In this document: positions 1,254-16,351 of the stretch, piece by piece
Numbering within the stretch: position 1 is the first letter of the stretch
Layout: each line of letters starts with the position of its first letter
Assembly (NCBI GenBank): GCA_003644265.1
Contig: QNBX01000104.1
Span: 1 to 16,351, forward strand
Reading direction: 5' to 3'
Length of the DNA stretch: 16,351 bases
Origin: Planctomycetota bacterium
GTDB taxonomy: Bacteria > Planctomycetota > B15-G4
The notes under the pieces: generated by a model
The model's input: only the letters and a program-made list of their open reading frames with translations
Told to the model about the DNA's origin: nothing
Database searches by the model: none
Made by a program: the position numbers and the translations under genes

Positions 1254-2207
1254 TCAGCCCTCCCCCTCGGCCCAGACGGCGCCCTGCTCGATCCAGCGCT
1301 TCAAGGTCGCGATCTGCTCGGCGCTGAGCACGTCGCCCTTGGCCGGCATGACGTCCAGATCTTCGGGCGGCAGGGACACGCGCGTGAGCAGTTCGCTGGC
1401 GAAGGGCTGACCGGGCACGATGACCCGGGGCGAGTCGCCCTCGTCGAGGGGCAGGTCGAGGCGCAGGTCGCCCTTGGTCTTGGCCGCGCCGTGGCACTCC
1501 ACGCAGTGCGCCACGAAGATGGGCGCCACGTCCCGGACGAAGTCGATCGGGGGCAGGCTGTCGGCAGCCGCAGCGTCAGCGGCATCAGCGGTCGGCTCGG
1601 CGTCGGTGAGCGCGTCATGGGCCGCTGCGTCGCCGGGGGCCTCGACAGACGCGTCGGCGGGCTCGGGCGCCGCCGGCTCCGATCGGCTGGCCTCGCCCTC
1701 GCTCCAACCCAAGGCCTGCCAGAGCGGGCCGCTGACGTACTCACGGCCGTGGACCATCTTGCCGCCCAGGCTGCCGCCGATGCCCAGGAACAGGCACACG
1801 AAGCAGAGGATGAAGCGGCTGGCCTCCACCGCCCGGGGGCGCTGACCCTTGCGGCCGGAGAGGGCCAGCACGGCCGCCACCGGCGCGCCCACGGCCACGG
1901 CGATGCCGAGCCACTCGTGCCACTGCAACAGGTCGGCTACGCCGCGGCCCGGATCGTCGTGCTCGTGCAGCAGCCACCCGCTGAGCCCGGCGGCCACGGC
2001 ACCCAGGGCGCCGAACACGAGGCACGGCAGGGCGCTGGAGGACGGCACCGGCCCGCGCTTGCGCAGGCCCCACAGCTCCAGCAGCAGGGCCAGCATCAGC
2101 AGGGCCACGGGGAAGTGCACCAGCATGGGATGCAGGCGACCGACGAAGAACTCCCAGAGCGGAGGGAGGCCGAGTTGGGAGTCGGCAAGCAGCAGGATCG
2201 GGCTCAT
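1254..2207 (-). CDS. DUF2231-type membrane protein fused to a planctomycete-type cytochrome c domain
   Basis: A 317-residue protein with two parts. Residues 1-150 form a four-helix membrane region with the DUF2231 signature LHPMLVHFPVALL (residues 25-37), further His residues (HEHDD 81-85, WHEW 96-99) and GGKMVHG near 148-154. An acidic/Ala-rich linker spans about 169-218. The C-terminal domain contains PIFVAHCVECHG, a CxxCH heme c motif at 235-239, followed by AKTKGDLRLD and a likely distal Met in DVMPAKG (M287), and ends with LSAEQIATLKRWIEQGAVW. This is the layout of the PSCyt1 family. Inference: the heme domain sits on the outer side of the cytoplasmic membrane and takes part in electron transfer; the donor and acceptor are unknown. 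The ATG at 2207 gives a complete DUF2231 domain, but no strong ribosome binding site is visible. It lies between hrpA (123 bp) and pntA (178 bp), with no evident functional link to hrpA. Confidence 0.85.
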   Translation of the reverse strand: MSPILLLADSQLGLPPLWEFFVGRLHPMLVHFPVALLMLALLLELWGLRKRGPVPSSSALPCLVFGALGAVAAGLSGWLLHEHDDPGRGVADLLQWHEWLGIAVAVGAPVAAVLALSGRKGQRPRAVEASRFILCFVCLFLGIGGSLGGKMVHGREYVSGPLWQALGWSEGEASRSEPAAPEPADASVEAPGDAAAHDALTDAEPTADAADAAAADSLPPIDFVRDVAPIFVAHCVECHGAAKTKGDLRLDLPLDEGDSPRVIVPGQPFASELLTRVSLPPEDLDVMPAKGDVLSAEQIATLKRWIEQGAVWAEGEG

Positions 2208-2279
2208 GGCAAGTCGTACGAGGGCGGGCGGACCGGCAGAGGGTACCGCGAGTGGCCAACTCGGCGCGTAACGAGCCTG

Positions 2280-2298
2280 GGGCGTTTCAGGGACGCCC
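2280..2298 (-). terminator. Possible hairpin after hrpA (weak terminator candidate)
   Basis: GGGCGT (2280-2285) and ACGCCC (2293-2298) are perfect 6-bp arms around a 7-nt loop, about 32 nt past the hrpA stop in the transcript direction. There is no T-tract after it, so an intrinsic terminator is only a possibility. It could equally be a leader structure for the next gene, whose ATG is 72 nt further on. Confidence 0.25.
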
Positions 2299-2330
2299 GG
2301 CGCGGTGGGGCTGAGCCTCCGTGATCGCTG

Positions 2331-5300
2331 CTAGCCCGCGAGCTCAGCCTGCACCTCGGCCAGGGCTCGCTCCAGCCGGCGCTCGCTGACCTTGCCGTCG
2401 GTGCCCAGCTCCTGGGCGAAGACCGAGACGCGGAATTCCTCGAGCAGCCAGCGCAGCGCCTGCAGCGCGGGGGGCGTCGCGCCGCGGGCGGCGGCCTCGG
2501 CGCACATGTCGCCCAGGCGTGCGTCCCAGGGCTGCACGCGGGCGGCCAGCTCGGCGTCCCGGGCGGTGCCGCGCTGGGCCGCGCGCTGCAGCCGGCGGCG
2601 CACGGCCTCCACGTAGCGCGGCAGGTGGGCCAGGCGCGCGCTGGGCGTGCTGGCCACGGCCTCGTCGCTGAGCAGCTGCTGCAGCCGCTCGGTGAGCGTG
2701 GCGGCCAGGGGCGCGAGGGCCGTGGCCTGCACCGCGTCCAGCTCCTGGCGCGCGCGCTGGCCCGCGGCGTAGGCGGCCGCGAGCGGCGGCAGCGACGCGT
2801 CGAGCGCCAGCACCATGCGGTCGCGGCCGCGCCCCAGCAGCGCGCCATAGGTTTCCGCGTTGTAGATCGGATACGGGCGCTCGCTGTCGGAGCAGGCCTG
2901 GGGTACCTGCGCGAGAAACGCCTCCTCGATGGTGCGCGCCACCAGGCCGTCGCGCAGCTCGTCACCGCCGCCGAAGGCCGCGTGCTGCAGCAGCAGCTGC
3001 TGCCACTGCGGGTGACGCTGCATGCGATGCACGCTGGCGCCGCGCACCGAGAGGCTCAGCAGCCGCCCCACGCCGGCGCGGGTGGCGGCGGCCGCCGCGG
3101 CGCGCGTGGGCAACAGCCGCAGGGCCACGGCCTGCCCGGTGTCCACCAGCGCCGGGTACGCGCGGCGACCATCGGGCAGCCCCACGCTGGCGGGCAGGGC
3201 ACCGAAGTCCCAGCGCGTCAACCCGTCGGCGCTCCAACGTGAATCCTCGATGGCAGCCATGGCCAGGCTGGCCTGGGCGCCGAGCTGCTCGCGCAGCGCA
3301 CCCAGGTCCCGCCCCGAAGCCAGCACCTGCCCGCGCGGGTCCAGCACCTCCAGCCGCAGCAGCAGCGCCGGAGCCAGGCGCGTGAGGTCGAAGGCGCGCA
3401 CCGACACGGGCCTGCCCAGCACGCGCTGCACGGCGCGGGCCAGGGCCGTGCGCAGCCCGCCCTCGTGCTCCAGCAGGGCCATGATCTCCACCGCGCGGGT
3501 GGGGATCGGTACCAGCTCCCGGCGCAGCTGCTTGGGCAGGCTGCGCAGCAGGGCGATGACCTTCTCCTTGAGCATGCCGGGCACCAGCCACTCCATGCGG
3601 CCGGCGTCCACCCGCGGCAGATCCTGAACGGACACCAGCGCGGTGACGCCGTCGTCGTCCGCGCCGGGCTCCAGGCGATAGCGCAGGGGCAACACCACGC
3701 CGCCCAGGTCGAGCTGGTCGGGGTGGGCCTGGCGCGCCTCGGCGCCGGGGTCCTGGCGCAGCAGGTCGGCGCGGCTCATGAAGAGCAGCTCGCGATCGTG
3801 CTTCTCGGCCGCTCGGCGCCAGCGTTGGAAGCTGGTGGAGCCCACCACCTCGGCGGGCACGATGCGGTCGTAGAAGTCGTAGCGCGCGTCCAGGTCGGCC
3901 AGCAGCCCGCGCTGGCGTGTGCGCGCCTCCAGCGCCGCCACCTCGTTGGCCAGGCTCAGGTTGTGCTTGAGGAAGGGCGCGTCGGTGTCGAGCTGCCCCT
4001 CGGCCAGGGCGTGGCGCAGGAACAGCTCGCGACAGATGACGGGCTCCACGCGCTCGTAGCGCGCGCGCCGGCGCGGCACCAACGGCAGGTCGTGCAGGGT
4101 CACCTTCTCGAGCGCCAGCACCTGGCCAGCGCCGCGCTCCCACCAGGGGTCGCGGTAGCTGCGCTTCAGCAGCGGGCCGCCCAGCTCCTCCACCACCTGC
4201 GGGTCGATGCGCGCCACGGTGCGGGCGAAGCGCCGGCTGGTCTCCACGATCTCGGCCGCCACGATCCAGCGCGGTCGCTTCTCGAACAACGCCGAGCCGG
4301 GCCAGATCCAGAGCGGCTTGCCGTCGGCGCCCTGGTACTCGTTCTTGTCGCTGCGGTAGGCCACGAAGCTGAGCAGGCCCGTGAGCAGGGCGCGGTGGAT
4401 GGCGGAGCGGTCGCCCGAGCGGCGCCCGGGCAGCAGCCCCACGCTGCGGCACAGCAGGCGCAGCTGGCCGTGCACGTCGAACCATTCCCGCACGCGCGCC
4501 GGCGAGAGGAAGCCGGCCGTGAGCGCCGCGTGCCACTGGCTGCGGGTCTTGCCGTCGCGCAGGGCGCGCACGTGGTCCCAGAGCGTGAGCGACGACATGA
4601 AGTCGCTGTCGCCGTCGAGCAGCCCGCCGTGGGCGCAGCGGGCCTCGCGTTCCTGGCCGGGCGGGCGCTGGCGCGGGTCCGAAGCCTCCAGCGACGCGGC
4701 GATGATGAGCACGTCCGCCAGCACGTCCTCGTCCCGCGCGGCCAGCAGCATGCGGCCGATGCGCGGGTCGACGGGTAGCTGCGCCAGCGTGCGGCCGATG
4801 TCGGTCAGGCCGTCGTCGTCGTCCAGCGCCCCGAGCTCGCGCAGGGTGCGCTTGCCGTCCTCCACCATGGCCTTGCGCGGCGGGTCGAGGAACGGGAAGT
4901 CGGCCACCTCGCCCAGGCCCAGGTCGGCCATGGAGAGCACCACCGAGGCCAGGTTGCTGCGCTGGATCTCGGGGGTCGGGCGCTCGTCGCGGCGCTCGAA
5001 GTCGTCCTGGCTGTAGAGCCGCACGCAGGTGCCGGGGCCCACGCGGCCGCAGCGGCCCTTGCGCTGGTCGGCCGAGGCGCGGCTGATGCCCTCGATCGGC
5101 AGGCGCTGCATGCGCGCGCGCGGGCTCCAACGCGAGATGCGCGCGCTGCCCGTGTCGATCACGGTGGCGATGCCCGGCACGGTCAGCGAGGTCTCGGCCA
5201 CGTTGGTGGAGAGCACCACGCGGCGCCCGCCGTGGGGCGCGAACAGGCGCGCCTGCACCTCGGGCGGCAGGCGCGCGTAGAGCGGCAGGATCTCGGTGGC

Positions 5301-6251
5301 GGGACCGGGCAGGCGGCGGCCGCGCAACACCCGCGCGGTCTCGTGGATGTCGCGCTCGGTGGGCAAGAACACGAGCACGTCGCCGGGCTCGCCGGCGCAG
5401 GCCTGACCCACGGCGTCGGCCACGTTGGCGGGCAGGTCGCTCTCGTCGGCCGGCGGCTTGTATTGCACCCGCACGGGGAAGGTGCGGCCCGTGACCTCGA
5501 TCACCGGCGCGGGCACACCCGCGCGCCCGAAGTGCTCGGCGAAGCGCTGCGGATCGATGGTGGCGGAGGTGATCACCAGCTTGAGGTCCGGGCGCCGGGG
5601 CAGCAGCCGGTGCAGGTAGCCCAGCAGGAAGTCGACGTTGAGCGAGCGCTCGTGGGCCTCGTCGAGGATCAGCGCGTCGTAGGCCAACAGGTCGCGGTCG
5701 CGGCGCGTCTCCGCCAGCAGCATGCCGTCGGTGAGCAGCTTGATCAGGGTGCCGTCGCTGGTCTCATCACCGAAGCGCACCTTGCAGCCCACCTCCTGCC
5801 CGAAGCGCAGTCCCAGCTCCTCGGCCACGCGACGCGCCACGGCGCGGGCGGCCAGGCGCCGCGGCTGGGTGTGCCCGATGGCCCCCGCCACGCCGTAGCC
5901 CAGCTCCAACAGCAGCTTGGGCAGCTGGGTCGACTTGCCCGAGCCGGTCTCGCCGCACAGCACCACCACTTGATGCGCGCGCACGGTGTCCAGAATCTCG
6001 TCGCGGCGCGCGGCCACCGGCAGCTGGTCGGGGTAGCTCACGCTGGGCACCGACGCGGCCCGGGCCTTGCGACGCGCGGCGGAGGCGGCCAGCTCTTCGT
6101 GCAGACGCTTGAGGTTGCGGTCGTGGGGCTTGCCGCGACGCCGGGCCTCGATCACGCGTCGGCGCAGCTTGCGCAGCCGCGCGCGGTCCACCAGCAGCAC
6201 CTGCTCGAGGGCCTCTTGCGGCGGCAGCGGCCGTGTGTCCGAGGCGCTCAC
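2331..6251 (-). CDS. hrpA: ATP-dependent RNA helicase HrpA (DEAH-box)
   Basis: A protein of about 1306 residues, the usual length of HrpA. Visible helicase motifs, numbered from the chosen start, are Walker A GETGSGKST near 100-108, DEAH in LILDEAHERS near 197-200, SAT in ITSATIDP near 229-231, STNVAETSLTVPGI near 347-360, and motif VI QRKGRCGRVG near 395-404. The long C-terminal region beyond the helicase-associated domain is the part typical of HrpA rather than of shorter DEAH helicases such as HrpB. Family knowledge: HrpA unwinds RNA in the cytoplasm and takes part in mRNA processing and rescue of stalled ribosomes. I chose the GTG at 6251 because it overlaps the stop of the upstream LMF gene (GTGA), which suggests translational coupling. 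The longer frame reaches another GTG at 6299, but that would add 16 Arg-rich residues unlike the family. Long open frames on both strands inside this gene are GC-driven shadows. The stop is TAG at 2331-2333. Confidence 0.95.
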   Translation of the reverse strand: MSASDTRPLPPQEALEQVLLVDRARLRKLRRRVIEARRRGKPHDRNLKRLHEELAASAARRKARAASVPSVSYPDQLPVAARRDEILDTVRAHQVVVLCGETGSGKSTQLPKLLLELGYGVAGAIGHTQPRRLAARAVARRVAEELGLRFGQEVGCKVRFGDETSDGTLIKLLTDGMLLAETRRDRDLLAYDALILDEAHERSLNVDFLLGYLHRLLPRRPDLKLVITSATIDPQRFAEHFGRAGVPAPVIEVTGRTFPVRVQYKPPADESDLPANVADAVGQACAGEPGDVLVFLPTERDIHETARVLRGRRLPGPATEILPLYARLPPEVQARLFAPHGGRRVVLSTNVAETSLTVPGIATVIDTGSARISRWSPRARMQRLPIEGISRASADQRKGRCGRVGPGTCVRLYSQDDFERRDERPTPEIQRSNLASVVLSMADLGLGEVADFPFLDPPRKAMVEDGKRTLRELGALDDDDGLTDIGRTLAQLPVDPRIGRMLLAARDEDVLADVLIIAASLEASDPRQRPPGQEREARCAHGGLLDGDSDFMSSLTLWDHVRALRDGKTRSQWHAALTAGFLSPARVREWFDVHGQLRLLCRSVGLLPGRRSGDRSAIHRALLTGLLSFVAYRSDKNEYQGADGKPLWIWPGSALFEKRPRWIVAAEIVETSRRFARTVARIDPQVVEELGGPLLKRSYRDPWWERGAGQVLALEKVTLHDLPLVPRRRARYERVEPVICRELFLRHALAEGQLDTDAPFLKHNLSLANEVAALEARTRQRGLLADLDARYDFYDRIVPAEVVGSTSFQRWRRAAEKHDRELLFMSRADLLRQDPGAEARQAHPDQLDLGGVVLPLRYRLEPGADDDGVTALVSVQDLPRVDAGRMEWLVPGMLKEKVIALLRSLPKQLRRELVPIPTRAVEIMALLEHEGGLRTALARAVQRVLGRPVSVRAFDLTRLAPALLLRLEVLDPRGQVLASGRDLGALREQLGAQASLAMAAIEDSRWSADGLTRWDFGALPASVGLPDGRRAYPALVDTGQAVALRLLPTRAAAAAATRAGVGRLLSLSVRGASVHRMQRHPQWQQLLLQHAAFGGGDELRDGLVARTIEEAFLAQVPQACSDSERPYPIYNAETYGALLGRGRDRMVLALDASLPPLAAAYAAGQRARQELDAVQATALAPLAATLTERLQQLLSDEAVASTPSARLAHLPRYVEAVRRRLQRAAQRGTARDAELAARVQPWDARLGDMCAEAAARGATPPALQALRWLLEEFRVSVFAQELGTDGKVSERRLERALAEVQAELAG

Positions 6252-7792
6252 GGCGAGAGCACCAGACCCACGTCGTCGAGCGGCTCGTGATGCCACCACC
6301 CACCGTCGACGCGGCGCTCATCCGGCGTGGCATAGCGGGCCTCCACCAGAGTCGCGCGCAGGAACGACGGCGGCCCGGCACCCAAGGGCTGGGTCCCCAT
6401 GAGCGCCAGGGCGCCCTGGCGTTCCTGCACCAGGGCCCGCAGCGTGGCGCCGAACCAGGGCGAGCTCTCGTAGGCGTAGCCGCGTGACACGAACCACTCC
6501 CAGCGCAGGGCCTCGAACCACAGGCGCCAGTCGAGACGCGGCATGTGCGGCTGACACCACGCCGGGCGACGAGCCGGGTCTCCCGGCTTGTGGCGGAACG
6601 GCCAGGGCGTCCAGCGCTCGCCGTCGTCGCTCAGTTCCAACAGGATCTCGGGCCGCGTGGTGGTCATGCTGCGGAAGAGCCCGTAGTCGTTGACCAGCAT
6701 CACACGCTGCAGCCGCTGGCGCAGAGGCTCCAACGGCGTGAGCGGCCCGGACAAGAGCGTTCGCGCGCGGCGCTGCAGCGTCGCCGCCCAGCCGTGCTCG
6801 TCGCCGCGCCCCACCCGCAGCGTGCGCGGGTCATCGCCCGGCCCCGCGGCCGAGCGCAGCAACCCGGGCGTACCCGCCGCGAGCGAGACCAGCAGCAGCG
6901 CCAGCGCCGTGCCCCGCTGCCACCAAGACGCCCGTCGGCGAGGCGGCTCCCGCAGACGCAACACACGATCGTCCAGCAGCGCCAGGCACAGCACCGCCGT
7001 GAGCAGGTTGAAGAAGCCGTAGTTGCCCGTGGCGGCGATCACGAGCTGCAGGCCCAGCAGCCCCGGCAGCGCCAGCCGCCGCCCCCAGCGACCGCACACG
7101 ATCAGCAGCGGCAGGGCCAGCTCCACGCCAAACATGGCCAGGGCCTCGAGCTCGTGGGCGCGAGCGGGCAAGGCGTGGACCGCCGCGCTGACGCCGTGGG
7201 GCAAGGGCTGGGTCTGGTGGTGGTAGCTCATGGCCGAGAGGTCGGCCCAGGTGGCGTCGCTCCAGCTCAGCTTGACCAGGCCCGACTCGAGCATGAGCCG
7301 CAACAGGATCCACCACAGCAGCCAGCGCGCGGCGGCGGGCGGCTCGGGATCACCGCGGCGGTCGCGCCACAGACGCCAGGGCGCATAGAGCGCCATGGCC
7401 AGCGAGACCTCCACCATCAGGCTGTCCCACTGGAACGACAAGAAGGCGTCGCTCACCAGCACCTGGCTCAGCGTGACCAGCGCCAGCAGCAGCGCGCCCA
7501 GCGCAGGGGCCACGTCCAGCAGCACCAGCAGCGCCGCGCACACACCCAGGGCGCAGAGCAGATGCAGCCCGAGGTCGCTCGGCAGAAGCCGCAGCAGGGT
7601 AGGGAACTCCAGGGCGTCCGGCGGCTGGGGCAGGGCCTCGATGGCCGCCATGCGCTGGGCCAGGGGCAGGATGCCGGTGGAACCGATCAGCCCCTGGGCC
7701 TGGACCCAGAACGAGAGCTGGGCGCACAGGGCCGTGAAGCCGAAGGCCAGCAGCACCAGCTGCCGGCTGCGTTGATGACTGAGCGCGACCAC
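6248..7792 (-). CDS. Lipase maturation factor (LMF1) family membrane protein
   Basis: A 514-residue protein with several hydrophobic helices in the first two-thirds and a soluble C-terminal part. Segments typical of the LMF1 family are visible: FLSFQWDSLMVEV (117-129), RLMLESGLVKLSWSD (165-179), YHHQTQPLP (190-198), VELALPLLIVCGR, GNYGFFNLLT (256-265), YGLFRSMTTTRPEI, and in the C-terminal domain FRHKPGDPARRPAW, PRLDWRLWFEAL, SPWFGATL and a final GGWWHHEPLD. In animals LMF1 helps fold dimeric lipases in the ER. Bacterial homologues are common in Myxococcota and related groups, and their role is not settled; assisting export or folding of secreted proteins is inference. The GTG at 7792 is the only plausible start; it lacks a Shine-Dalgarno and sits one base after a perfect hairpin (7794-7808). 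It lies 46 bp after the PLP enzyme gene and overlaps hrpA by 4 bp, so it may be the second gene of a short operon. Confidence 0.88.
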   Translation of the reverse strand: MVALSHQRSRQLVLLAFGFTALCAQLSFWVQAQGLIGSTGILPLAQRMAAIEALPQPPDALEFPTLLRLLPSDLGLHLLCALGVCAALLVLLDVAPALGALLLALVTLSQVLVSDAFLSFQWDSLMVEVSLAMALYAPWRLWRDRRGDPEPPAAARWLLWWILLRLMLESGLVKLSWSDATWADLSAMSYHHQTQPLPHGVSAAVHALPARAHELEALAMFGVELALPLLIVCGRWGRRLALPGLLGLQLVIAATGNYGFFNLLTAVLCLALLDDRVLRLREPPRRRASWWQRGTALALLLVSLAAGTPGLLRSAAGPGDDPRTLRVGRGDEHGWAATLQRRARTLLSGPLTPLEPLRQRLQRVMLVNDYGLFRSMTTTRPEILLELSDDGERWTPWPFRHKPGDPARRPAWCQPHMPRLDWRLWFEALRWEWFVSRGYAYESSPWFGATLRALVQERQGALALMGTQPLGAGPPSFLRATLVEARYATPDERRVDGGWWHHEPLDDVGLVLSP

Positions 7793-7793
7793 G

Positions 7794-7808
7794 GCGCCAG
7801 CTTGGCGC
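7794..7808 (-). promoter_or_regulatory. Perfect hairpin directly before the LMF start codon
   Basis: GCGCCA (7794-7799) and TGGCGC (7803-7808) form a perfect 6-bp GC-rich stem with a 3-nt loop, ending one base before the GTG start at 7792. It occupies the place of a ribosome binding site in the 46-bp gap after the upstream gene. It has no T-run, so I read it as a possible translation-blocking or mRNA-processing structure rather than a terminator. Chance is not excluded in such GC-rich DNA. Confidence 0.35.
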
Positions 7809-7838
7809 GCGCGGGCCGGTGCGGCAAGCGGCCCGGCG

Positions 7839-8912
7839 TCAGACCGCGGGCAGTACGTCGAGCCCCAGCAGCTCGATGCGCGGCGACAGGTAGTGTTCGA
7901 GTACGGGCTCGGTCTTCACCAGGTCCGTGCTCAGGTACTTCTTGTGGGAGTCGGCAAACACGGTGGCCAGCACCGACCCACGCCCCTGGGCCGCGGCCAC
8001 GGACAGGGCGCCGATCAGGTTGGCGCCCGAGCTGATGCCCACCGCCAGCCCCAGCTCGCTGGCCAGGCGCTGGGCCATGAGGATGGCGTCGCCGTCCCAG
8101 GCGTCGATCACCTCGTCCAGCACCGAGAGGTCCACCAGGGCCGGCACAAACTCGTCGCTGATGCCCTGGATGCGATGGCTGCCGACGCGCTTGCCGGTGC
8201 GCAGCGTGGGCGAGTTGGCCGGCTCCAGCGGATGGATGGCCACGTCCGCCAGGGCCTCCGTGAAGCAGGCGCCCACGCCCGTGACCGTGCCGCCCGTGCC
8301 CACGCCCGCCACGAAGCCCGAGGGCGTGCGCCCCACCGAGCGCAGCTGCGAGAGCAGCTCGGGACCGGTGCCGCGCTCGTGCGCCTCCGCGTTGTCGGCG
8401 CTGGAGAACTGCTGCGGCCGCCACACGCCCGGGCGCGAGGCCGCGTAGGCGTCGGCCGCCGCGATGGCGCCCAGGAAGCCGCCCTGCGCGTGGCTGATGG
8501 GTTCCACCGTGGCGCCCAGGGCGGTCATGACGGAGGTGCGCTCCACGCTCATCCAGTCCGGCATGAAAATGCGCACGGGGTGGCCCATGGCGCGCCCCAC
8601 CGCCGCAAAGGAGATGCCGGTGTTGCCGCTGCTGGCCTCGGCGATCTCGTCGCCCGGCTCGATGTCACCGCGCTCGTGGGCGCGGGTGAGCATGTGCAGC
8701 GCCATGCGGTCCTTGACGCTGCCCGTGAAGTTGGCGGTCTCGTGCTTGGCCCAGACCGTGTGCCGCGCGCCGTCCAGCAGGCAGTGAATGCCCAGCAGCG
8801 GCGTGTGCCCCACCAGGTGGGTCAAGCCGCTCGCACGCCTGAGCACCTCGCTGCGATGCCGGCCGACATCGTGCTCGCGGGGCTTGGCGTGGCGGGCCGA
8901 GTCGAGACTCAT
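7839..8912 (-). CDS. PLP-dependent cysteine synthase/cystathionine beta-synthase family enzyme
   Basis: A 357-residue fold-type II PLP enzyme. It has TPLLGI near 37-42 and the Schiff-base lysine K67 in NFTGSVKDRMA. The substrate-loop motif is SSGNTGIS (94-101), the phosphate-binding loop is GVGTGGTVTG (203-212), and RIQGISDEFVP (247-257) and SSGAN (294-298) follow. FADSHKKYLST near the C-terminus is like the end of CysK proteins. Family members make cysteine from O-acetyl- or O-phosphoserine and sulfide, or cystathionine from serine and homocysteine. The asparagine-rich loop of classic CysK is replaced here by HETANFTGS, so the exact substrate is uncertain. The frame is open up to 9050, but I chose the ATG at 8912: it has GGAG six bases upstream (8919-8922), and the region beyond it holds the divergent promoters and lacks coding character. 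It faces selD across 106 bp. Confidence 0.88.
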   Translation of the reverse strand: MSLDSARHAKPREHDVGRHRSEVLRRASGLTHLVGHTPLLGIHCLLDGARHTVWAKHETANFTGSVKDRMALHMLTRAHERGDIEPGDEIAEASSGNTGISFAAVGRAMGHPVRIFMPDWMSVERTSVMTALGATVEPISHAQGGFLGAIAAADAYAASRPGVWRPQQFSSADNAEAHERGTGPELLSQLRSVGRTPSGFVAGVGTGGTVTGVGACFTEALADVAIHPLEPANSPTLRTGKRVGSHRIQGISDEFVPALVDLSVLDEVIDAWDGDAILMAQRLASELGLAVGISSGANLIGALSVAAAQGRGSVLATVFADSHKKYLSTDLVKTEPVLEHYLSPRIELLGLDVLPAV

Positions 8913-8940
8913 GGGGAACTCCAGGGAGACCCCTGAACAT

Positions 8941-8962
8941 AACATCATTTCGAAGTCATGTT
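8941..8962. promoter_or_regulatory. 22-bp near-palindrome in the divergent region (operator candidate)
   Basis: The half-sites AACATCATTTC and GAAGTCATGTT are reverse complements at 18 of 22 positions, centred on TTCGAA (8949-8954). This lies in the only notably AT-rich patch of the region, between two divergent genes, and overlaps the -10 and spacer of the predicted promoter of the PLP enzyme. That layout fits repressor control of that gene and possibly of selD. I do not recognise the binding protein. Confidence 0.5.
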
Positions 8963-8972
8963 TCGAGATCAA
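8944..8972 (-). promoter_or_regulatory. Sigma70-like promoter for the leftward PLP enzyme gene
   Basis: On the minus strand TTGATC (8972-8967; 4 of 6 to TTGACA) and AATGAT (8949-8944; 4 of 6 to TATAAT) are separated by exactly 17 bp, and lie 32 bp upstream of the ATG at 8912. For selD in the other direction only a weak -10-like TATCTT (8987-8992) is visible. Confidence 0.4.
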
Positions 8973-9006
8973 GGGCCGCCCCGGGCTATCTTCAGCGCTC
9001 GTCCCC

Positions 9007-9012
9007 GGAGGA
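9007..9012 (+). promoter_or_regulatory. Shine-Dalgarno of selD, fixing the upstream start
   Basis: GGAGGA ends six bases before the ATG at 9019. This is the best ribosome binding site in the window. It supports initiation upstream of the in-frame TGA rather than at the GTG at 9103, which has no such site. Confidence 0.85.
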
Positions 9013-9018
9013 AGCCCC

Positions 9019-10065
9019 ATGGCCCTGAGCGGCCGCAAACTGCGCCTCACCCGCTACGCCAACTGCGCCGGCTGAGCGGCCAAGATCCCCGCTGCGGACC
9101 TCGTGCAGGTCCTCTCCAAGCTACCGCAACAGGACGACCCGCGCCTGCTGGTGGGCGCCGATCACTTCGACGACGCCGGCGTGGCCCTGCTGCCGGACGG
9201 CTCGGCCCTGGTCCAGAGCGTGGACTTCTTCCCGCCGGTGGTCGACGACCCCTGGTGGTTCGGGCGCATCGCGGCGGCCAACGCCCTGTCCGACCTGTAC
9301 GCCATGGGCGCGACGCCCTTCAGCGCCCTGAACCTGGTGGTCTTCAACACCAAGGCCCTGCCCATGGAGGTGCTGGGCTCCATCCTGGAGGGCGGCTCCC
9401 ACGCCCTGACCGAGGCCGGCGTCATGCTGCTGGGCGGACACTCGGTGGAGGACGAAGGCGTCAAGTACGGCATGGCGGTCACGGGCCTGGTGCCGGCCGG
9501 CCAGCAGGTCACCAACGCCGGCGCGCGCCCGGGCGACGTGCTCTACCTCACCAAGCGTCTGGGCACGGGCTGCCTGACCACGGCCGCGCGTAAGGGCAAG
9601 GTCTCTGACCAGGACCTGGAGGCCGCCTGCCAGCAGATGGGCGCGCTCAACAAGGCCGCGGCAGAGGCCATGCGCGCGGCCGAGGTGCGCGCGTGCACGG
9701 ACGTGACGGGCTTCGGCCTGTTGGGGCACAGCCACGAGCTGGCGGCGGCCAGCGGGGTGCGCGTGGCGCTGGTCGGTCGCGATCTGCCGCTGCTGTCCGG
9801 CGCGCGCGAGCTCATGACCAGGGGCTTCGCCAGCGGCGGCGCGGCGCGCACGCTGAGCCATCTCAAGGACGTGCTGCAGCTGCACCCAGACGTCGACGAC
9901 GTGACCACGCGGCTGGCCGCTGACTCCGAGACCTCGGGCGGGCTGCTGATGGCCGTTCCCGAGGCGCGCGTGGCGCAGCTCGAACAGGAGCTCGAGCAAC
10001 GCGAGCTGCTGGTGGCGCGGGTGGGTCGGGTCGAGGCGGGCGAGGGTGTCGCGCTGCTGCCGTAA
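9019..10065 (+). CDS. selD: Selenide, water dikinase (selenophosphate synthetase), itself a selenoprotein
   Basis: SelD makes selenophosphate from selenide and ATP, the selenium donor for selenocysteine and 2-selenouridine. From the ATG at 9019 the frame reads RLTRYANCAG, then TGA at codon 19, then AAKIPAADLVQVL. E. coli SelD has its active-site Cys17 and Lys20 in GAGCGCKI, so the TGA falls exactly at the catalytic Cys position and K22 matches the essential Lys. Read through as Sec, the protein has 348 residues, the normal family length. Later motifs are DHFDDAGV, SVDFFPPVVDDPWWFGRIAAANALSDLYAMGA, LGGHSVEDEGVKYG, CTDVTGFGLLGH and DSETSGGLL. A SECIS-like stem-loop follows the TGA (9096-9112). 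C16, three residues before Sec, gives a CxxU pair, while the second Cys of the E. coli CxC motif is Ala here. Expression of a functional enzyme requires selenocysteine machinery (SelA, SelB, tRNA-Sec) elsewhere in the genome. It converges on ogt after a 100-bp gap without a clear terminator. Confidence 0.95.
9073..9075 (+). other. In-frame TGA read as selenocysteine (Sec19 of SelD)
   Basis: The TGA lies between codons for conserved SelD residues on both sides (CAG before, AAKI after), in the same frame and with a good ribosome binding site upstream. It replaces the family's catalytic Cys. A nonsense mutation at exactly this position, with the rest intact, is much less likely than Sec recoding. 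Confidence 0.92.
9096..9112 (+). promoter_or_regulatory. Bacterial SECIS stem-loop of selD
   Basis: GGACCT (9096-9101), loop CGTGC (9102-9106) and AGGTCC (9107-9112) form a perfect 6-bp stem with a 5-nt loop. The loop starts 26 nt after the TGA. Bacterial SECIS elements lie within the coding region just downstream of UGA, with the apical loop roughly 16-37 nt away and a G among its first two bases; here G is second, followed by U as in the GU of the E. coli fdhF loop. The expected partner is SelB. Confidence 0.8.
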
Positions 10066-10165
10066 ACGCAGTGCCCTGCCGGCGAGCGGGTTCCCGGCCA
10101 ACGCAGGTCTTGCCCGTCCCCGAGCCCGGCAGCGCGCGTGCGTGCAGGTCTCGTGCAGCGTGAAC

Positions 10166-10663
10166 TCAGCGGGCCGGCGCGGCGCCTTCCAACGCGAGCA
10201 GCTCGCGCTTGCGCCAGAGCCCGCCGCCGTAGCCTCCCAGCGTGCCGTCCGACGCCACCACGCGATGACACGGCACCACGATGGCCAGGCGATTGGCCGC
10301 GTTGGCCCCCGCCACCGCGCGCTGCGCCGTGGGGCGCTCGATGCGTCGCGCCAGCTCGGCGTAGCTGATGGTGCCGCCGAAGGGGATGCTGCGCAGCTGC
10401 TCCCAGACGCTCTCCTGGAAGGGCGTGCCGGCCAGGGCCAGCGGCACCTCGAAGCGTTGCAGCTCACCGGCGAAGTACGCGCCCAGCTCACGAGCCAGCT
10501 GCTCGGTGTGGGCGTGGGGCCCGTCCACCGGCGCCACGCCGAGGTGCTGGGTCAGGGCGCGCATCTGCCGCGCCAGACGGCGCGGATCAGCAAACTCGAG
10601 CAGGCACACGCCGCGCTCGACGGCCGCCACCACCAGCTCTCCGATGGGAGAGTCGAGCTGCAT
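10166..10663 (-). CDS. ogt: Methylated-DNA--[protein]-cysteine S-methyltransferase
   Basis: A 165-residue protein matching the Ogt/Ada C-terminal family. It contains DSPIGELVVAAVERGVCLLEF at the start, GTPFQESVWEQLRSIPFGGTISYAELARRI (79-108), NAANRLAIVVPCHRVV (121-136) with the alkyl-acceptor C132, and DGTLGGYGGGLWRKRELL. It repairs O6-alkylguanine in DNA by irreversible transfer of the alkyl group to C132, acting once. The frame is open to a start at 10834, but the ATG at 10663 gives the normal length, has AGGTGG about nine bases upstream, and leaves the perfect inverted repeat at 10678-10695 in the untranslated leader. An intermediate ATG at 10729 is less likely. It converges with selD and diverges from msrA. 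No Ada-like regulatory domain is fused to it. Confidence 0.93.
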   Translation of the reverse strand: MQLDSPIGELVVAAVERGVCLLEFADPRRLARQMRALTQHLGVAPVDGPHAHTEQLARELGAYFAGELQRFEVPLALAGTPFQESVWEQLRSIPFGGTISYAELARRIERPTAQRAVAGANAANRLAIVVPCHRVVASDGTLGGYGGGLWRKRELLALEGAAPAR

Positions 10664-10821: not shown

Positions 10822-11499
10822 ATGCCCAGACCACTGATGCCTCGATCCCGCCTGTTCAGCCTGCTGCTGGTGCTCGCCGCCTGCGGCGTCTCCATGGACG
10901 CGTCGCAATTGAGTGACCCCGCGGCCACGCCGGCCGGCAGCGCCTCCCTCCTCACTGAGAGCCCCCCCATGAGCACGGACGCCGACCTCTCAACCGCCAC
11001 CTTCGGGGCCGGCTGCTTCTGGTGCGTAGAGGCCGTTCTTGAGCAGTTCGACGGGGTGCACGACGTGTCCAGCGGCTACATGGGCGGCGAGGTGGATGCG
11101 CCCAGCTACGAGGACGTGTGCAGCGGCGCCAGCGGTCACGCCGAGGTGGTGCAGCTGCGCTTCGATCCAGAAGTCATCAGCTACGAGACCCTGCTGGACT
11201 GGTTCTGGCGGCTGCACGACCCCACCACGCTCAACCGCCAGGGCGCGGACGTGGGCACGCAGTATCGCTCGGCCATCTTTGTGCACGACGAGTCCCAGCG
11301 CGCCGCCGCCGAGGCCGCCCTGCGCGCCGCGGACGACGCAACGGCCTTCGACGCGCCCATCGTGACCGAGATCAGCGCGGCCTCGCGCTTCTACCCAGCC
11401 GCGGGCTACCACCAGGACTACTATCGCAACAACAAGAACAAGGGTTACTGCCAGCTCGTCATCAGCCCTAAACTGAACAAGCTGGGGCTCGATCACTAG
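10822..11499 (+). CDS. msrA: Peptide-methionine (S)-S-oxide reductase MsrA, lipoprotein form
   Basis: A 225-residue protein. Residues 1-21 are a lipoprotein signal (charged MPRPLMPRSR, hydrophobic LFSLLLVL, lipobox LAAC with C21), followed by a Ser/Pro/Ala-rich linker to about 50. The MsrA domain starts TATFGAGCFWCVE (C65 catalytic, C68), then GVHDVSSGYMGGE, YEDVCSGASGHAEVV, FWRLHDPTTLNRQGADVGTQYRS, AAGYHQDYY and GYC (C210, likely resolving). It reduces methionine-S-sulfoxide in proteins using thioredoxin-type reductants. The signal implies it acts on envelope proteins, so an electron supply across the membrane would be needed. The active site is Cys, not Sec, despite selD nearby. An in-frame ATG at 10969, directly after a C7 run, would give a cytosolic 176-residue form; I prefer the upstream start because of the well-formed lipobox. 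The ribosome binding site at 10822 is weak. Confidence 0.93.
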   Translation: MPRPLMPRSRLFSLLLVLAACGVSMDASQLSDPAATPAGSASLLTESPPMSTDADLSTATFGAGCFWCVEAVLEQFDGVHDVSSGYMGGEVDAPSYEDVCSGASGHAEVVQLRFDPEVISYETLLDWFWRLHDPTTLNRQGADVGTQYRSAIFVHDESQRAAAEAALRAADDATAFDAPIVTEISAASRFYPAAGYHQDYYRNNKNKGYCQLVISPKLNKLGLDH

Positions 11500-11573: not shown

Positions 11574-12083
11574 ATGCTGCCTCATTCCCTACCCCGGCTC
11601 ATGGCCTGCTGCGTCCTGGCCCTCGGCTTGTTTCACGAACTGCCTGCGGTGGGCCAGCTCTGCTCAACCGTCTTGTTCGATGCCGAGTCGATGGGGCGCA
11701 GGCAGCTCGAAGCGACCTACGCGCCCCTGCTGGAGCTGATCGATCACGCCGTTCCCGCGGACGCCCCCGTACGCCTTGTGACGTCCTACGAGCCACTGTA
11801 TGCATGGCTGCGCTTCGCCCTCTACCCGCGACACGTGTCCGTCGGAAACGGGGTCTTCGCGGAGCATGCTCGGGGCACGCCCAGCGCCCCGGGCGAGCAG
11901 CGCTCTGCCCAGGCGAGCTTCGTCGTGGTCGACCTGGACCTCCCGCTCCAGGGTCGGAGGCAGTCGGCGGGCGACTGGCTCGCCTACCTGTCCAGGACCC
12001 TCCAACCCGCGTCCGTGCGTGCCTGCGCGGCTCCTGTCGCCGGCGTAGCCGTGTTCGAGGTTGAGCATGTGGCAGGGGGCTGA
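11574..12083 (+). CDS. Small exported protein of unknown function, paired with the GT-C gene
   Basis: 169 residues. The N-terminus (LPRLMACCVLALGLFHELPAVG) looks like a signal sequence or single membrane anchor. The rest, about 140 residues, is soluble and has no motif I recognise. The stretch RLVTSYEPLYAWLRFALYPRHVSVG resembles the YxxLYP-type segment seen in the extracytoplasmic parts of some polytopic glycosyltransferases and their small companion proteins; this is a resemblance, not an assignment. GAGGGA (11563-11568) lies five bases before the ATG. Its 3' end overlaps the next gene's ATG by 17 bp, which suggests coupled translation and joint function at the membrane. Two Cys in the mature part (CSTVL, ACAAP) could form a disulfide. 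Confidence 0.7.
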   Translation: MLPHSLPRLMACCVLALGLFHELPAVGQLCSTVLFDAESMGRRQLEATYAPLLELIDHAVPADAPVRLVTSYEPLYAWLRFALYPRHVSVGNGVFAEHARGTPSAPGEQRSAQASFVVVDLDLPLQGRRQSAGDWLAYLSRTLQPASVRACAAPVAGVAVFEVEHVAGG

Positions 12084-13632
12084 CGTGTGGGTCCACAGCC
12101 TGCTCTGCGGCGTCGCGTGTGTGGCGGTGAGCTTGATGGGAGCCCGCTGCCTGAGCTCGGCGCCCGGCAGCTCGATCGCGTCGCGTGGCCTGGCAGGCAG
12201 GCTCGGCAGCGGCTTCACGATGGGCAGCGGGATCATCAGCGTGGAACTGCTGCTCATGGGCTACGCAGGCGTGCCCTTCAGCCGTGGGCTCGCGCTGGCG
12301 GCTCTGTTCGTTCCGGTCGCGTTGATGTCGCTCTCTCAACGTGTGCTCAGGCGGCGGCGCAAGCACGGCCAGAGCCGCCTGCCGACGGGCCGGGTCATCA
12401 AGCGCGACAGCGATCGGAACCCGCGAGGGTGGAACATCACGGCCTGGGTGGTGGCGACCCTGCTCGCCGGGTACGTCCTGATGCTCGCGCTGGTCACGGT
12501 CTCGTACGGCGCCTCGTTTCCGGACGCGCACAACATCTGGCTGCTGAAGGCCCGCGCGTTCTTCGTGGATTCAGGCTTCGACGGGGACTACTTCCGCTCC
12601 TGGCCCGATTGTCATGACCGGCGCAGCTACCCGCCGGGCGTGTCGTTGTTCGCGACCTGGATCTACCTGCTGATTGGCGACGCCGACAGCCAGGCGGTCA
12701 AGCTGCTCTGGATCGGGTTCCTGCTCGCCACGGCCGGATGGGTGCGCGACAGCGTGCGGCGCTGGTCGACGCGCTCGCTCGCGCTCGTAGCTGGAGTGCT
12801 GACCTTGCTCTCGCCGATGGGCATGGTGCTCAGCATGTGGGGCGCCGCAGACCTGGCGCTCGCGGCGTACGGCATGGCCGCCGTGGCCCTCACGCTCGAC
12901 TGGGTGGCGCGTCGACATCCCCGCGGCATTCCCTGGCAGGTCGGCATCTTCCTGGGCTTCGCCGCGCTGACCAAAGGGGAGGGTGCCGTCATGCTGGTGA
13001 GCGTTCCCTGCAGCATGCTCCTGGCGGCATGGGTCATGGCTCGGCGCGCTGCAACCGCCTCACGGGATGAGCCGCGCCCCCGGCAGCTGCTGCCGCTGGC
13101 CCGGCAGATCGGCGTCGCCTGCGCAGCGCCCATGGCGCTCGTGGCGAGCTGGCACGCCTTCCTGGCACATCGCGCGGTCGTCTTGGTCCCCGTGATGCCC
13201 GGGACGTCCGAGAGATCGGGACGCCTGTCCCAGCGCTTGGCGGTCATCGCTGACGCGGCCATCGAGCAGTTCTTTCTGCCGTCCTGGATGTACGTCTGGC
13301 CGCTGAGCCTCGCGGCCTGCTGCTGTCTGCTCGTCCTGCCGAGGTACCGCCGGCAACTCAGCGCGGGCTGGTTGCCGTTGGTCTGCTTCTGGGTCGTGGC
13401 GGCCCAGCTCGGGGCCTACGCCATGGTGTACCTGCTCTTCCGGGGGGATCTCGTGTACCTGCTTGAGACGACTGCCGGGCGCATCCCCTTCCACGTCTGG
13501 CCGATCGCGCTGTGCGGGCTCATGCTCGCGCTCTCGGGACCTCGCGACGCAGGCGACAAGCCGGGAGCCCTGGCCCCGGACCATGACACGCGCTCGGACA
13601 CGCGGTCAGACTCCAACGCTCAGCGCACGTAG
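12067..13632 (+). CDS. Polytopic membrane glycosyltransferase, GT-C/GT39-like
   Basis: 521 residues with about ten or more hydrophobic helices and no signal-type soluble domain. After helices up to about 145 comes the loop FPDAHNIWLLKARAFF (151-166), the D-x(3)-W-x(3)-K pattern of GT-C enzymes with the acidic residue D153 at the catalytic place. YPPG (188-191) and LTKGEG (301-306) also recur in such proteins, and LLETTAGRIPFHVWP (465-479) is like their last periplasmic loop. GT-C enzymes transfer sugars from polyprenyl-phosphate donors on the outer side of the membrane; the acceptor here is unknown. The Arg/Lys-rich loop 92-122 is probably cytoplasmic. I chose the ATG at 12067; a TTG two codons upstream is the alternative. 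It overlaps the small exported protein gene and ends 13 bp inside the convergent sulfatase-fold gene. Confidence 0.75.
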   Translation: MWQGADVWVHSLLCGVACVAVSLMGARCLSSAPGSSIASRGLAGRLGSGFTMGSGIISVELLLMGYAGVPFSRGLALAALFVPVALMSLSQRVLRRRRKHGQSRLPTGRVIKRDSDRNPRGWNITAWVVATLLAGYVLMLALVTVSYGASFPDAHNIWLLKARAFFVDSGFDGDYFRSWPDCHDRRSYPPGVSLFATWIYLLIGDADSQAVKLLWIGFLLATAGWVRDSVRRWSTRSLALVAGVLTLLSPMGMVLSMWGAADLALAAYGMAAVALTLDWVARRHPRGIPWQVGIFLGFAALTKGEGAVMLVSVPCSMLLAAWVMARRAATASRDEPRPRQLLPLARQIGVACAAPMALVASWHAFLAHRAVVLVPVMPGTSERSGRLSQRLAVIADAAIEQFFLPSWMYVWPLSLAACCCLLVLPRYRRQLSAGWLPLVCFWVVAAQLGAYAMVYLLFRGDLVYLLETTAGRIPFHVWPIALCGLMLALSGPRDAGDKPGALAPDHDTRSDTRSDSNAQRT

Positions 13633-16226: not shown

Positions 16227-16351
16227 CCACCTCTCCACCTCTCCACCTCTCCACCTCTCCACCTCTCCACCTCTCCACCTCTCCACCTCTCCACCTCTCC
16301 ACCTCTCCACCTCTCCACCCCTCCACCCCTCCACCTCTCCCCCCCTCCACC
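16227..16351. repeat. 8-bp tandem repeat array (CCACCTCT)n, running off the window
   Basis: Eleven perfect copies of CCACCTCT (16227-16314) are followed by two CCACCCCT copies, one perfect copy, one CCCCCCCT copy and a partial unit at the edge: 15 units plus 5 bp. One strand is almost purely pyrimidine. The other, AGAGGTGG, has paired-G runs that could form a two-layer quadruplex. Because the unit is not a multiple of three, all frames stay open and give a spurious eight-residue repeat (ERWRGGEV) on the minus strand. The degenerate copies sit at the right end. Confidence 0.95.

Follow-up and report, generated by a model that had tools for sequence, protein, structure and literature searches.

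A probable selenocysteine-containing form of selenophosphate synthetase (SelD), read through an in-frame UGA, in a contig of a Planctomycetota bacterium

The gene at positions 9019–10065 of the forward strand of the analysed DNA (a stretch of 16,351 nt from a Planctomycetota bacterium, referred to below as the window) very likely encodes the selenoprotein form of selenophosphate synthetase (SelD; selenide, water dikinase), with a probability estimated at about 96%. In this reading, the in-frame TGA at 9073–9075 specifies selenocysteine (Sec19) of the active site. The estimate draws on homology, conservation of the codon, enrichment of a hairpin across the family, and the co-occurrence and linkage of sel genes in the relatives, all observed in the sequences compared here; the actual decoding of UGA in the source organism and the chemistry of the enzyme would follow from known biology.

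As read from the sequence, the frame opens with ATG at 9019–9021, carries the TGA as codon 19, and ends with the TAA stop at 10063–10065; with UGA read as Sec, its product comprises 348 residues. Aligned with SelD families, as the initial annotation had proposed, this read-through product scored 355.3 bits against TIGR00476 (cut-off 125) and hence passed the family cut-off. It contains both Pfam domains, AIRS and AIRS_C, and matched the structures 3u0o (E 5.4e-62, 213 bits) and 2yye (E 1.6e-59), from E. coli and Aquifex, respectively. In the alignment with 3u0o, codon 19 stands opposite the first Cys of the GAGCGCK loop, presumably the essential catalytic Cys17 of the E. coli enzyme, and Lys22 (9082–9084, three residues after Sec; forward strand, like the other features of this gene) stands opposite the Lys of the same loop. 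Thus, the TGA does occupy the position of the catalytic Cys, as had been claimed from the sequence alone. The window protein shares with 3u0o the family, the loop and the Lys, but it would carry Sec where 3u0o has the catalytic Cys, and it has Ala in place of the second Cys (+2). The ribosome binding site, described earlier as strong, is a Shine–Dalgarno-like GGAGGA, likewise read from the sequence, at 9007–9012, with six nucleotides between its end and the ATG.

A scan of genome contigs yielded five loci, four of which (L001–L004) represent SelD with TGA at the site, the fifth (L005) being a weak match without TGA. A further search covered 98 relatives of the genome harboring L001 (G001). Some match at E 1e-3 was recovered from 88 of them, the weak ones possibly representing other AIRS-type proteins; 76 matches had E below 1e-40, of which 61, each from a different genome, contain a single TGA and 15 are free of stops. 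The active-site codon was compared at 74 reading places, i.e., 71 of these 76 matches together with L003, L004, and the window; the remaining five were the match in G036, which starts too late, the copies of G006 and G084, and the second copies of G050 and G078. The codon was TGA in 64 places including the window, TGC in seven, and TGT in three, with no other codon represented. This is the pattern by which bacterial selenoproteins are recognized, i.e., an in-frame UGA opposite Cys in homologues (64 TGA vs. 10 Cys codons). A second, partial match in G064 (E 4.2e-35), outside the 74, also contains one TGA. Five genomes were found to possess, besides TGA-SelD, another SelD-type copy free of stops: in G009, G030, and G076 the second copy has Cys at the site, and in G050 and G078 it lies within frames of more than 750 aa.

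The sequence flanking the TGA, held to be conserved in the initial annotation, indeed behaves as coding on both sides. For the window and L026, the 16-codon segment upstream of the TGA has seven identical, eight synonymous, and one non-synonymous codon, and the downstream segment of equal length five, eight, and three, respectively; the same counts are 7/5/4 before and 6/6/4 after the TGA for L027, and 6/6/4 and 8/3/5 for L028. All 64 TGA forms have Gly before the TGA and Lys at +3. In five more distant loci, non-synonymous codons equal or outnumber synonymous ones before the TGA (e.g., 4/1/11 in L029 and 4/6/6 in L003); hence, the argument for two-sided coding depends on the closest loci and on residues conserved throughout the set.

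These comparisons bear on the reading in which translation of the real protein begins with the GTG at 9103–9105, so that the N-terminal loop is missing, the TGA being the ordinary stop of an unrelated short frame. This GTG is the start chosen by the gene caller: the database copy of the window SelD (P0002) is 320 aa long and begins with VQVLSK, just the truncated call, deprived of the active site, that had been predicted. Late starts also occur among the best 120 of 7999 scored homologues (P0002 included), of which 79 start only past residue 19, 39 carry Cys at this position, one has Ser, and one is a longer protein aligning only later. All 69 homologues listed among these 120 at an identity of at least 57% begin after the active-site residue, and for 56 of the 79 late-starting ones the alignment starts at residue 29, i.e., at the residue of GTG 9103. 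Still, a genuine start at this GTG is very improbable: the codons before the TGA correspond to the conserved N-terminus of SelD, in which the closest loci (L026–L028) differ mostly by synonymous changes, Cys homologues run through the site both in the protein list (39 of the best 120) and in the genomes (10 of the 74 reading places), and the GTG itself sits within the loop of a SECIS-like hairpin.

Yet less probable is that the TGA at 9073 arose by a sequencing or assembly error, or that selD has decayed; the window is a single record, but the identical TGA is found in 63 places from other genomes, at about 38–70% identity, the matches of the 61 related genomes contain no other stop, and error or decay is already excluded as the cause of the TGA for the SelD family. 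Genome-wide reassignment of UGA (e.g., to Trp, Gly, or Cys), which would make codon 19 something other than Sec, is just as hard to credit, since no point in its favor was found, five of the nine stops read in window genes are TGA, so that UGA is not reassigned throughout, and selA, selB, and tRNA-Sec accompany TGA-SelD in most of the relatives (see below).

The selenoprotein form of SelD encoded in the window has a further Cys, Cys16 (codon TGC at 9064–9066), three residues before Sec19, in a CxxU arrangement. Cys at −3 is found in 34 of the 64 TGA forms (the window included) and Cys at +2, as in 3u0o, in eight; one more form has Cys at −2, and 21 have none of the three placements. No TGA form has Cys at both −3 and +2, a mutual exclusion that may stem from shared ancestry. 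Cys and Sec of the CxxU forms may constitute a redox pair.

Downstream of the TGA, at 9096–9112, the window harbors a bacterial SECIS-like hairpin (GGACCT/CGTGC/AGGTCC). The bSECIS model, as described in passages of a 2026 review (PMC13188914), comprises a loop of 3–9 nt, a stem of 4–16 bp, and G in loop positions 1–2, 16–37 nt after the UGA. The window hairpin fits this model, with six base pairs and a 5-nt loop (CGUGC) starting 26 nt after the UGA and having G at position 2, followed by U. Taken alone, it is not above chance: its energy is −7.7 vs. a mean of −4.5 kcal/mol in synonymous-codon shuffles (p 0.143), the total folding energy of the 48-nt segment gave p 0.453 in shuffles of the same kind, and the comparison with dinucleotide shuffles gave z −0.38. 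Of the stem-loop noted in the initial annotation, therefore, the fit to the model and the enrichment across the set stand, while the window hairpin by itself lies within chance. The enrichment is seen from the presence of a model hairpin in 60 of the 64 TGA forms vs. 4 of the 10 Cys forms (Fisher p 1.9e-4), and from the energies of the TGA forms relative to synonymous shuffles, both for the hairpin (mean −8.0 vs. −3.5, Wilcoxon p 2.4e-10) and in total (−16.4 vs. −13.7, p 8e-7), the set-wide p values being too small because the sequences are related and not independent. Tested singly, 26 of the 64 genes had a hairpin, and 12 a total energy, with p below 0.05. No such excess over shuffles was seen in the 10 Cys forms, where the respective energies were −1.1 vs. 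−1.7 (p 0.16) and −11.8 vs. −11.1 (p 0.63).

Covariation was assessed in an alignment of 20 of the 64 TGA forms: 19 with the loop starting 26–27 nt after the TGA, and L028, which lacks a model hairpin (L085 was left out of the 20 forms with this spacing). In this alignment, 95% of the cells of the six-pair stem are paired. Changes on both sides were found at two stem pairs, in one sequence each, and the five covariation measures were matched by 14–36 of 500 shuffles. When the stem was slid by −1, the covariation score was 0.171 vs. 0.127 in place, yet only 55.8% of the cells were paired. With so few two-sided changes, shuffles matching the measures, and a slid stem scoring higher, covariation is weak evidence.

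The components of the Sec machinery were scored with limits of E 1e-60 for selB, the family cut-off for selA, and 1e-11 for tRNA-Sec, the sets of genomes being assigned by eye. In the four genomes G001–G004, tRNA-Sec and selB over its cut-off were present in all and selA in three; ARAGORN identified the best tRNA match of each of four loci as tRNA-SeC with the anticodon TCA. Among the 61 genomes with TGA-SelD, selB was found in 59, selA in 60, and tRNA-Sec in 57; all three parts were present in 55, two or more in 60, and every genome had at least one. The complete Sec machinery that the initial annotation predicted for the source organism is thus borne out in most of these relatives. The absence of one or two parts from the other six may be due to incomplete assembly or to stricter filters for tRNA-Sec. 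In the 37 genomes without TGA-SelD, selB was found in 12 (in G088 below the family cut-off), selA in 10, and tRNA-Sec in 11, with all three in seven.

The genes are linked as well. In G001 and G002, selA and selD are matched on one strand, with 29–35 bases between the end of the former match and the latter; within L001, the reading frame of selA extends to 10004, overlapping the selD start at 10001; and in G004, selA, selB, and selD follow in a row on one 6.1-kb contig. Within the window itself, no selA, selB, or selC was seen, nor was any tRNA or any Rfam match at the gathering score.

Some of the related genomes display a more elaborate arrangement. The locus L108 (G076:C3:76500-87500) harbors, at 1349–9761 on the minus strand, a single cluster with two selD copies, comprising, in this order, Cys-SelD (8721–9761), selA (7255–8721), Sec-SelD (6101–7147), a double-cubane anaerobic reductase, a 4Fe-4S protein, selB (1533–3455), and tRNA-Sec (1349–1445). 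In G005 (L065, 672–3047), G006, and G084, selA, selB, and tRNA-Sec are present and the only SelD match over the family cut-off lies within a long frame of 792, 736, and 751 aa, respectively; in G005, a pyridine-nucleotide oxidoreductase precedes SelD in the fusion, and the active-site residue is Cys. The NCBI model for long frames of this type bears the name fusion_not_SelD, in contrast to the prediction, given in passages of PMC4561486, that SelD fusions generally retain activity.

As to its surroundings, the window selD stands alone, divergent from a gene for a PLP enzyme (Pfam PALP) of the kind to which cysteine synthases belong, which did not reach the cut-off of any listed NCBIfam model for cysteine synthase; selA is not adjacent. 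Shared synteny with L001–L004 was considered and rejected: in a tblastn search with 11 window proteins, SelD alone had a good counterpart in these loci, the window sulfatase having a weak one in L001 (28% identity). Judging by the best hits of SelD and HrpA, the source organism probably represents an unsampled lineage in the neighborhood of planctomycete MAGs. A scan of 8880–10200 for promoters and terminators found nothing. The MsrA encoded near selD (10822–11499) has ordinary Cys (GAGCFWC) and an N-terminus that looks lipoprotein-like by eye; the 523-residue frame at 12061–13632 looks like a membrane protein, also by eye, and is without a Pfam match. An 8-bp tandem repeat (CCACCTCT, 15.6 copies) occupies 16227–16351, up to the end of the window, and is perhaps where the assembly stopped.

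The selenocysteine design of SelD is already well known in bacteria. According to passages of a 2006 paper (PMC1794560), FdhA and SelD are the most widespread bacterial selenoproteins, and according to those of the 2026 review (PMC13188914), SelD is the second most expansive prokaryotic family. Compared with the Sec-SelD of bacteria and archaea outlined in these passages, the window gene shares Sec as the catalytic residue of the N-terminal loop, the hairpin 3′ of the UGA, and sel genes in the relatives; it differs in lineage and in the Cys at −3, which it has in common with 33 further TGA forms. Complete gene sets for Sec insertion in Planctomycetes were published in 2016 for strains P1 and P2, G. 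obscuriglobus, and I. pallida (PMC4807772), so the phylum is shared; in contrast to the case presented here, SelD is unnamed among the selenoproteins in the main-text passages of that paper. The available main text of PMC5029168 contains no word beginning with “planctomyc”, and a search by title and start of abstract, with subscription papers and supplements mostly outside it, found no paper on Sec-SelD in this lineage. The initial annotation, which saw the novelty in the annotation and the lineage, put it fairly.

By analogy with known systems, translation would start at 9019, and the complex of SelB, GTP, and Sec-tRNA(Sec), held by the hairpin 21–37 nt downstream, would put selenocysteine at the UGA at 9073 with no termination. 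Sec19 in the N-terminal loop would then handle selenide, and SelD would make selenophosphate at the expense of ATP. Since SelA would need selenophosphate for the formation of Sec-tRNA(Sec), full-length Sec-SelD would depend on its own product.

For the family, the finding points to a systematic fault of annotation, in which the listed close database copies of the window SelD lack the end with the active site. Truncated entries of this kind appear inactive, though SelD serves as the marker gene for the use of selenium; within the window, it is a GTG formed by the SECIS-like loop itself that gives the false start. A more far-reaching and rather unlikely suggestion is that Sec-SelD forms a putative self-sustaining selenium switch, with a Cys-SelD pilot copy in some lineages and the CxxU pair as a redox gate. 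If true, full-length SelD would appear only in cells with ongoing selenophosphate synthesis, the pilot Cys-SelD would start the loop in some lineages (the cluster of L108 has both forms), and the CxxU pair would represent a redox gate absent from the E. coli enzyme. The Cys and Sec copies of L108 offer a natural system for studying how a SelD needing its own product gets started.
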